Assembly: GCA_018660835.1 (NCBI GenBank)
Contig: JABJJN010000008.1
Span: 172,977 to 236,976, forward strand
DNA: 64,000 nucleotides
Direction: 5' to 3'
Source: Gemmatimonadota bacterium
GTDB taxonomy: Bacteria; Latescibacterota; UBA2968; UBA8231
Each line of letters opens with the position of its first letter. The first letter of the stretch is position 1. This document shows positions 24,725-27,054 of the stretch, piece by piece. The notes under the pieces were generated by a model. The model did not search any database, was not told the DNA's origin, and saw only the letters and a program-made list of their open reading frames with translations. The position numbers and the translations under genes are program-made.

Positions 24725-26020
24725 ATGGATGATGAGGGGCGGCGGATCCGAGTTCAAGGCTGCTGCGGATTGACCCTGGCGCTGCTGACGGCAGCGCTGA
24801 TGGCAGGTGGATGTGGTGATAGTGATAACGGTCGTCGCGCCGTAGACTCTGGTCTTGCCGGGTCTCACGGTAGTTGCCAGGAGTGCCATCTCGACGATGG
24901 TGCCCTGAAGCTTCTCGCACAAGAACCACAGGAGACGCCCGAAGACTCGGGCGAAGGGTGAGGCGGATCTGTGCCTCCGTTGGAGGCGTGGAAAAAGGTC
25001 CTTGTTGATTCAACATTCCTTGCCACGACACACGGACAGCGACGCTGTGTCGATTGCCATGGTGGCAATGCCGATACGGACGAGATGGTCTCAGCCCATG
25101 ATGGGTTGATCGCTGATCCCTCGGACGCTTGTGCGGACTGTCACATCTCGGAAGCGGCGCATTTCGAAGACTCCCAACACGCTCAGCTGCATGGTTATCG
25201 GAATCTGATTTCCGCACGTGCGGGCGTCGAGCAGATGACGCCCGACATGAATCAGATGTTCGAGGCCAATTGCAACACCTGTCACGTGACTTGTGGCCAG
25301 TGTCACATTTCCCGACCGCATTCCGTCGGCTCCGGCTTCGTTGCAGGTCATCAGATCATGCGACGGCCATCGATGGTGGAAAACTGCACAGCCTGTCATG
25401 GCAGTCGCATCGGCGCGGAGTTCCGCGGCGAAAACACCGCGATCCCCGCCGACACCCACTATCTGCAAGGGATGCAGTGCGTCGCCTGCCACGGCGCAGA
25501 TGAGATGCACGGGCATGGGCGGCAGGGCGACACACGCTATGAGGTCGACGTCGCACCCGCCTGTGAAGACTGTCACGAAACAGCATCGACCAATGCCTAC
25601 CACGAGCCCCACGGCGACAAGGTGCAGTGCCAGGTCTGCCACAGCACCACCTACAAGAACTGCTACAACTGCCATGTCGGAGAAGGGCTTGAACAACCCT
25701 CCGAAATGGACTTCAAGATCGGCCGTAATCCACTCAAGTCCGACACGCGGCCCTATGACTTTGTTGTCCTTCGACACATCCCTATCGCGCCAGATTCGTA
25801 CCGGGACTATGTCTCAGGTGCGCTCGTCGATTTCGCCACGATCCCCACGTGGAAGTACGCCACGCCTCACAATGTGCAGCGAAGGACTCCCCAGACAGCA
25901 GACTGTACGAGCTCGTGTCACGGGAATAAAGAGGTCTTCCTCACGGCAACCGATCTGGTCGGCCTGGCGCCCGAGGAAATCGCCGCGAATCAGGGTGTTG
26001 TAGTCGAGGTGATCCCATGA
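24725..26020 (+). CDS. extKL: Multihaem c-type cytochrome lipoprotein, probable selenoprotein (ExtKL-like; in-frame UGA at 24959)
   Basis: Read through the TGA at 24959-24961, the frame encodes about 431 residues. A signal ends in a lipobox (LMAGGC). One CxxCH motif precedes the UGA; after it come nine CxxCH and one CxxxCH motif (CTSSCH), eleven haem sites in all. The two halves are in the same frame, and the downstream part has no signal peptide of its own. The UGA follows SGEG and precedes GGSVPPLEAW. A SECIS-like hairpin begins six bases later. This matches what I recall of ExtKL, a multihaem cytochrome of selenite/tellurite-reduction ext clusters that is a selenoprotein in some lineages; the adjacent rhodanese lipoprotein supports it. 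Likely periplasmic or outer-membrane electron transfer. Alternatives: premature stop or sequencing error. Confidence 0.78.
24968..24992 (+). promoter_or_regulatory. Candidate bacterial SECIS element
   Basis: The stem has 11 pairs, including three G-U: the 5' arm is 24968-24978, the loop GUU is 24979-24981 and the 3' arm is 24982-24992. The upper six pairs are GCCTCC/GGAGGC. The loop begins 18 bases after the UGA, contains G first, and the structure is inside the coding frame, as in known bacterial SECIS elements. The surrounding frame remains open and haem-rich. Confidence 0.62.
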
Positions 26021-26055
26021 CCATGGAGATTTCTACTCTACACAAGGAGACCATC

Positions 26056-27054
26056 ATGCGAGCAATCGCGTTTGCAGTGGCAGTGACTATGACTGTATTC
26101 ATCAGCGGCTGTGGCGATGACGATGACGATGGCGTGAATGGCCCAGGGGCAAGCCTCGAGTTTGACGTCATCCAGGCCAATGTGGATGCCTACGTAGATA
26201 GCGACATCGGCCCCGTGACCACCGCGCAAGCACTGTTCGACAATCTCAACGATGGGAATGCGAGCAACAATCCGACGATCGTCAGCGTGCGCTCTGCCGC
26301 GCACTACGCTCTCGGCCACATCGAAGGAGCGATCAATATCCCCTGGCGGGCCATCGCCGAACCGGAAAACTTGGCGATGCTCTCCAAGGACGACGACATC
26401 GTCGTCTACTGCTATACCGGCCACACGGGGGGCGTCGCCACGACAGCCCTGCGTTCACTCGGCTACAAGGCGACGAACATGAAGTTCGGCATGGTCGCAT
26501 GGTCGAAAGATCCCACCGTGCGCGCCACGACGCCATTCACCGAGGCCACGGAGGCGCACGACTTCCCTGTGGAAGCGACGCCAAACGAGCCAGGTACGTA
26601 CGCGTTGGCAGATCCTGACTATACGAGTTCGAACGCCGAGGACGTCATCGTCATGGCGGCGATCGAGAACTACCTCGTGGACAGTGCACCGGTCATTAAG
26701 GCACAGGCGTTGTTTGATAATATCAATGATGGCAATGCCGCCAATGATCCCGTCGTCGTGAGCGTACGCGCTCCCGAGCACTATGCGGTGGGCCACATTC
26801 CTGGTGCGATCAACATCCCCTGGCGTCAGGTGACCAAGTCAGAGAATCTGGAAAAGTTGCCGACTGACAGACAGATCGTCGTCTACTGCTACACAGGACA
26901 CACGGGCGCCGTGGCAACGACTGCACTGAATCTGCTCGGGTATGATGCGGTGAATATGAAGTTTGGAATGGGCGCCTGGACCACGGACCCTGCCGTGCGT
27001 GTAGCTGCTCCATTCTCCGAGGACGCGGTGATGGGCTTCCCGGTCGTGCAGTAA
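26056..27054 (+). CDS. extH: Tandem-rhodanese lipoprotein (ExtH-like)
   Basis: A 332-residue protein from ATG at 26056, with AAGGAGA six bases upstream, which decides the start over ATG at 26017. The signal ends in the lipobox FISGC, followed by an Asp-rich linker. Two rhodanese domains (about 50-165 and 210-320) are near copies: both contain AQALFDN, GHI.GAINIPWR and the active-site loop CYTGHTG with its catalytic Cys. Rhodaneses bind persulfide or selenide sulfur-family groups. It lies 35 bases after the cytochrome and before a strong terminator, so the two form one unit. ExtH, a rhodanese-like protein of selenite/tellurite-reduction operons, is the closest known match by context. Confidence 0.82.
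   Translation: MRAIAFAVAVTMTVFISGCGDDDDDGVNGPGASLEFDVIQANVDAYVDSDIGPVTTAQALFDNLNDGNASNNPTIVSVRSAAHYALGHIEGAINIPWRAIAEPENLAMLSKDDDIVVYCYTGHTGGVATTALRSLGYKATNMKFGMVAWSKDPTVRATTPFTEATEAHDFPVEATPNEPGTYALADPDYTSSNAEDVIVMAAIENYLVDSAPVIKAQALFDNINDGNAANDPVVVSVRAPEHYAVGHIPGAINIPWRQVTKSENLEKLPTDRQIVVYCYTGHTGAVATTALNLLGYDAVNMKFGMGAWTTDPAVRVAAPFSEDAVMGFPVVQ

Follow-up and report, generated by a model that had tools for sequence, protein, structure and literature searches.

Table 1 of PMC13188914 (2026) lists 119 prokaryotic selenoprotein families, among which the haem-related entries are ExtKL, GSU2204 and an octahaem cytochrome. The protein family model NF040886 is named ExtKL in that table, and the Geobacter ExtKL, GSU2937-2936, appears as a selenoprotein candidate in PMC1914089. 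A pairing of multihaem cytochromes with rhodaneses has also been described, in Dethiobacter, where octahaem cytochromes encoded with rhodaneses are put forward as candidates for sulfur reduction (PMC10376724).

Here we describe a multihaem cytochrome gene in a stretch of 64,000 nucleotides, referred to below as the window, from the assembly GCA_018660835.1 of a Gemmatimonadota bacterium (Latescibacterota in GTDB; contig JABJJN010000008.1, forward-strand positions 172,977 to 236,976). An earlier note on this DNA had proposed that the gene contains an in-frame UGA decoded as selenocysteine (Sec) and that its product is an ExtKL cytochrome. We compared the gene with its relatives, with models of known selenoproteins and cytochromes and with the selenium machinery of its host. 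Taken together, the results make it very probable that the protein contains Sec at residue 79 and also belongs to a family distinct from ExtKL.

Results

A cytochrome gene with eleven haem motifs and an in-frame TGA

On the plus strand of the window, a single frame (24725-26020) is open apart from a TGA at 24959-24961 (codon 79) and its terminal TGA at 26018-26020. The haem-rich frame is thus continuous across the internal TGA, as the earlier note had stated. If this codon is read through, the sequence and its homologues define a Sec-containing undecahaem cytochrome gene of 431 residues, with the proposed Sec79 in the motif GEG-U-GG, an assignment that draws on the sequence, the relatives and dN/dS. 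The first 30 codons (24725-24814) encode a signal peptide with a probable lipobox ending at Cys30 (AGGC), as judged by eye and not by a predictor. Haem motif 1, CQECH (24875-24889), precedes the TGA, and motifs 2-11 (25046-25921) follow it, starting at residues 108, 136, 183, 190, 221, 252, 280, 302, 313 and 394. The motif at residue 394 is CxxxCH and the other ten of the eleven are CxxCH. Outside these motifs, the only Cys or Sec residues are 13 and 14 in the signal peptide, 30 in the lipobox and 79. The gene product would be a c-type cytochrome that carries eleven haems and is exported and probably anchored by a lipid.

Taken alone, the downstream piece corresponds to an ORF at 24971-26020 with a GTG start nine bases past the TGA and 349 amino acids, in which no signal peptide was visible by eye. 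The earlier note had placed a lipoprotein signal and one haem motif before the TGA and ten motifs after it, in a second part without a signal peptide of its own; the motif count agreed with ours, and the statements on the signal were borne out by eye.

The TGA codon is conserved among relatives

Genome contigs were scanned with six peptide probes, none of which touched the TGA column, and this yielded 64 loci. We aligned 63 relatives, leaving out L057, the in-frame extension of which ran into a stop and the DNA of which reads GEGUGG; one aligned relative, L075, was truncated before the site. The earlier note had asked whether homologues carry Cys or Sec at this position. Of the 62 relatives that cover it, 57 have TGA and two have Cys (L041, L045), while the remaining three have Trp (L035), Leu (L046) and Gln (L085, which is poorly aligned at this column). 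The Trp codon of L035 (6124-6126) is a TGG where the close relative L044 has TGA, and the hairpin beside it is intact, so that Sec was probably lost recently or the codon is a sequencing error.

A second sample consisted of 301 genomes from the phylum to which G248 belongs; this genome, titled Chloroflexi, contains L059. At E values up to 1e-30, 13 matches were obtained, in 12 genomes. Twelve of these matches were full-length with one TGA each, counted anywhere in the match and including a terminal TGA, and one of them also had a TAA; the thirteenth match was partial and had no TGA. Of the twelve full-length matches, four were in genomes already sampled (those of L047, L059 and L055, namely G240, G248 and G245, and that of L084, recognised by accession).

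By contig title, the members come from Chloroflexota, Calditrichota, KSB1, Myxococcota, Thermodesulfobacteriota, Bacillota and other candidate phyla, and one divergent member, with 33% identity, is encoded by a named strain, Desulfonema magnum 4be13, whose genome is complete. Haem motifs numbered 11 in 48 of 59 members, 10 in six, 12 in one and 13 in four, in a count for which some member rows extend beyond the likely protein end. In a tree of these 59 members (L051, L057, L065, L075, L085 and L088 were left out), which was midpoint-rooted and unsettled by bootstrap, the four non-Sec tips were nested among Sec tips and required three changes, as few as in 34 of 500 label shuffles. The simplest reading of this tree is an older Sec with three losses. 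Three sequences on contigs labelled Thorarchaeota (L034), Actinomycetota (L041) and Caldisericaceae (L081) grouped with Chloroflexota or Calditrichota sequences, for which misbinning and transfer are as likely as each other.

Selection around the codon was estimated against L095, a homologue from the taxonomic family of the host that is 67% identical to the window protein and keeps the TGA. The dN/dS ratio was about 0.21 (0.35/1.65) for residues 47-78 (31 codons) and about 0.12 (0.06/0.54) for residues 80-105 (26 codons); when everything downstream of the TGA was included, saturation of dS precluded a dN/dS value. These comparisons support purifying selection on both sides of the TGA, as would be expected of one continuous protein.

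The hairpin after the TGA covaries

A bacterial SECIS hairpin follows the TGA at 24968-24992 on the plus strand. It starts six bases past the codon and has an 11-bp stem that includes three G-U pairs and a GUU loop at 24979-24981, the first base of which is the 18th after the codon. This is the geometry that the earlier note had described. By itself, the hairpin of the window is unremarkable, since, of 200 shuffled versions of the 55-nt stretch, 25 folded at least as well (z -1.09). We therefore relied on a gapless alignment of 58 sequences, those of the window and its 57 relatives with TGA, that spans 42 bases beginning at this codon. In these sequences G21, the first base of the apical loop, was invariant, and the conserved core, which comprises the seven loop-proximal pairs, had standard pairs in 92.1% of cells and changes on both sides in six of its seven pairs. 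Covariation of the core was 0.324; shuffles gave 0.110 +/- 0.015, and slid controls did not exceed 0.131. When all eleven pairs were considered, 71.9% of cells were paired and covariation was 0.242; conservation was poor in the lower four pairs.

Several of the double changes swap amino acids and yet keep the pair (PPLEA versus APLEP, for example in L052 and L069), and protein constraint therefore fails to explain the covariation. Thus, folding the RNA, as the earlier note had advised, gave a result no better than chance for the single sequence, whereas the conservation of the TGA in 57 of 62 relatives and the covariation of the stem in 58 sequences place the hairpin beyond chance as a conserved SECIS. 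The four non-TGA forms that were folded kept the hairpin in two cases (L035, L041) and had mismatches in the other two (L045, L046).

The host carries the machinery for selenocysteine

The host genome comprises 7.09 Mb in 105 contigs and is 93.1% complete, with 8.0% estimated contamination. The selenocysteine genes that the earlier note had suggested seeking there are all present: SelA scored 548.2 bits, SelB 328.6 bits (an ORF of 630 amino acids) and SelD 358.4 bits. The gene for SelD shares its contig with the window and itself has an in-frame TGA, in the motif CGU. A tRNA-Sec was found at 66.6 bits, the best candidate being backed by ARAGORN with anticodon tca, although the tRNA-Sec model also exceeded its cut-off at a second place in the host genome and in five of 14 control genomes. 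The host SelD (L025, contig C4) is itself a probable selenoprotein, and its hairpin loop lies at the same distance from the TGA as that of the cytochrome.

In the family of the host, selA exceeded its cut-off in 23 of 25 genomes, and a full-length cytochrome of the kind described here was found in two of the 25 (a third had a weak partial match) and in two of 64 genomes of the phylum. Among the 64 loci, 50 genomes with homologues were scored for selA, which exceeded its cut-off in 43 of them. A link between the presence of selA and the Sec or non-Sec form was sought in these 50 genomes and none was found: selA is present in 39 of 45 genomes with Sec forms and in four of five with non-Sec forms, and its presence therefore does not separate the two. 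Six of the seven genomes without selA over cut-off carry the TGA form, where gaps in the metagenome-assembled genomes are possible.

The family appears separate from ExtKL and from other modelled families

The ExtKL model NF040886 has a curated cut-off of 250 bits. It gave no match to the window protein at E values up to 0.1 and matched none of the 59 members at E values up to 1e-3, and ExtKL identity was rejected. The best score of this model in the host genome was 20.6 bits, outside the cytochrome. In the phylum of Desulfonema magnum, NF040886 exceeded its cut-off in 20 of 198 genomes, and all 20 ExtKL loci obtained (L097-L116) encode five haems and carry Sec far downstream in AGHxxPDGU. Together, the model tests and these loci indicate a different haem-carrying selenoprotein family, and the claim of the earlier note that the protein is an ExtKL cytochrome does not stand. 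One genome with the TGA form, G052, also has two adjacent ExtKL-type matches without an internal stop (contig C12, 96118-98740; 493.3 and 491.8 bits).

The window cytochrome passed no NCBIfam cut-off, and defence-system models did not match; in Pfam, it passed the cut-offs of several general models for cytochromes, among them Cytochrome_C7. None of the 119 families of the 2026 table fits the protein, as judged from the table itself and from a scan with those of its models that are in NCBIfam or Pfam. Fourteen families were matched by at least one of the 59 members, and NF040886 was absent among them. One member, L063, matched the UshA-like (seleno)protein model NF041198: in its read-through (497-2188), the tail at residues 478-554, outside the Sec loop, resembles this model at 48.7 bits against a cut-off of 275. 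A literature search returned no title or abstract start that describes the family among the matches listed, and earlier notice elsewhere is possible.

A rhodanese gene adjoins the cytochrome gene

The next gene on the plus strand (26017-27054) overlaps the stop of the cytochrome gene with its start (ATGA) and encodes a two-domain rhodanese (Pfam Rhodanese). The product is a probable lipoprotein (ISGC, by eye) with an active-site loop, CYTGHT, that carries Cys, and it passed no NCBIfam cut-off. ORFs around the 65 loci and the window (66 sources) were clustered by single-linkage BLAST, and the window and L083 ORFs of the rhodanese cluster were scanned with models. This cluster was represented in 48 of the 66 sources, and 48 of its 49 ORFs share the strand of the cytochrome gene, which they precede or follow. 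The active-site loop, where recognised, carries Cys. A motif search for Sec in the rhodanese neighbours returned five TGA patterns, which were judged by eye to be chance.

Clusters of HybA-like Fe-S ORFs and of NrfD/QrcD-like membrane ORFs occurred in 22 and eight of the 66 sources, respectively, one representative of each having been scanned. Their presence is a hint that, in some members, electron transfer is linked to quinones. At L040 (8412-11571), the rhodanese gene is followed by genes for a 434-amino-acid protein that matched neither NCBIfam nor Pfam models and for a further two multihaem cytochromes. This set resembles an outer-membrane conduit, and its ORF clusters occur in 8 to 10 of the 66 sources.

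Conserved histidines and the predicted structure

A structure predicted with Cys in place of Sec and without haem had a mean pLDDT of 84.9 and a pTM of 0.79, with residues 71-80 forming a low-confidence block (58). Seven histidines outside the haem motifs (103, 152, 209, 245, 262, 296 and 382) are present in all 59 members, and three more are nearly so (351 in 57, 125 in 56 and 293 in 52). With ten conserved non-motif histidines for eleven haems, one haem may lack a conserved distal histidine.

Discussion

From sequence comparison, the UGA at codon 79 is almost certainly decoded as selenocysteine. The earlier proposal of a probable selenoprotein is upheld by the sel genes, by the Cys or Sec column of the homologues and by the conserved SECIS. 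Under the standard code, the TGA would instead be a real stop that separates a short lipoprotein with one haem from a ten-haem protein, or else a nonsense mutation or sequencing error; such a reading can draw on the insignificance of the hairpin taken alone and on the GTG ORF that opens shortly after the codon. However, the TGA is kept by 57 of 62 relatives, L095 among them, the hairpin covaries, both flanks of the codon show purifying selection, and no signal peptide is visible in the second piece, although attachment of haem c requires export. We regard a real stop as scarcely credible. There is also next to no chance that UGA is read in these lineages as another residue, such as Trp or Gly, or is passed by leaky suppression. 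The TGG of L035 fits a Trp reading, but the cytochrome gene itself ends in TGA, the host has tRNA-Sec, SelA, SelB and SelD, the SelD gene has its own TGA in CGU, the SECIS covaries and two relatives have Cys.

Granted selenocysteine at residue 79, the protein might still be the ExtKL of a selenite/tellurite reduction cluster, with which it shares haem and an in-frame UGA; a rhodanese-like gene, extH, is also part of the Geobacter ext cluster (PMC5877670). Nevertheless, this identity is very improbable, because NF040886 did not match the protein and exceeded its cut-off nowhere in the genome, and 20 of 20 ExtKL loci differ in their haems and Sec motif. We consider it highly likely that the protein belongs to a separate, also haem-bearing selenoprotein family; a function shared with ExtKL is possible.

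The role of Sec79 can be discussed more tentatively. It would be placed between haems 1 and 2, on a flexible loop, and would act as the reactive group; apart from the lipobox Cys, the mature protein would have no other free chalcogenol. As the sole Cys or Sec outside the haem motifs other than those of the signal peptide and lipobox, Sec79 should react with substrate or bind metal. Since a rhodanese gene adjoins the cytochrome gene, the simplest proposal is a transfer of sulfur or selenium to the selenolate: the exported rhodanese would hold sulfane sulfur (or selenium) in persulfide form and pass it to Sec79, and the haem chain would supply the electrons that release sulfide or selenide. The enzyme would then be a putative respiratory or detoxifying reductase of the polysulfide, thiosulfate or selenite type. 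The substrate, the reactivity of Sec and the partnership with the rhodanese are suggested by genomic context, and we offer this chalcogen-reductase mechanism as a tentative proposal that may well need revision.

Alternatively, Sec might serve one of the haems as an axial ligand instead of binding substrate, and would then tune the potential of that haem or form a selenolate-ligated active haem. Cysteine ligates haem in some sulfur-oxidising cytochromes. The ten non-motif histidines conserved in at least 52 of 59 members for eleven haems would leave room for such a ligand, and the window protein has no free Cys partner for Sec except the lipobox Cys. However, the loop at 71-80 was modelled with low confidence (58), conserved Lys or Met could serve as ligands, and one haem may be five-coordinate; we consider axial ligation by Sec unlikely. 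Similarly doubtful is the broader picture of a widespread undecahaem family with Sec at, or as distal ligand of, an active-site haem, in which a selenolate-haem reductase would act with the rhodanese on extracytoplasmic sulfur or selenium compounds. Under the chalcogen-reductase proposal, the family makes a sulfur- or selenium-reducing role directly testable.

In this family, selenium chemistry would be combined with a long chain of haems, usually with a rhodanese encoded close by and mostly in uncultured lineages; the standard code splits its genes at the TGA. Among described proteins, the family appears distantly related, as far as profiles can tell, to ExtM, a cytochrome with 12 haems from the ext cluster. 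The ExtM model NF040943 scored the window protein at 32.7 bits against a cut-off of 800; it matched 40 of 59 members at E values up to 1e-3, two of which gave 43.2 and 26.3 bits when scanned again. In hhalign, the family aligned to three ExtM proteins with a probability of 99.7 over query columns 9-285, and although haem motifs inflate such scores, the likeness of the GMxCxxCH segment and its surrounding residues goes further than the motifs. These three ExtM proteins, which are encoded beside ExtKL genes and score 1083.8, 1084.4 and 969.8 bits with the ExtM model, share the CHGG and GMxCxxCH segments and the lipoprotein-like start of the family. In contrast, they have 12 haems, lack an in-frame TGA and have no counterpart of the GEGUGG insert between their first two haems. 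The best fold and profile match in the PDB was octahaem tetrathionate reductase (OTR; 1sp3), which has eight haems. The fold match was weak (TM 0.27, Foldseek E 1.9e-3), the profile match had an E value of 1.7e-7, and the OTR model TIGR04315 did not match the window protein and matched two of the 59 members weakly.

The pairing of a multihaem cytochrome gene with a rhodanese gene recurs in ExtH, likened here by description, and in other rhodaneses encoded beside multihaem cytochromes; the octahaem cytochromes and rhodaneses of Dethiobacter, as presented in PMC10376724, are a parallel to the pair in the window and not a test of its mechanism. ExtKL resembles the window protein as a haem c protein with an in-frame UGA. 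In the six ExtKL loci inspected, however, the five haems precede Sec, whereas the window protein has one haem before Sec and ten after it, and the Sec of ExtKL lies in AGHxxPDGU whereas that of the family lies in an N-terminal GEGUGG loop. The window gene would thus add to the 119 families of the 2026 table a selenoprotein family that the table does not contain, found in several bacterial phyla and distinct from the known selenium-containing cytochrome.
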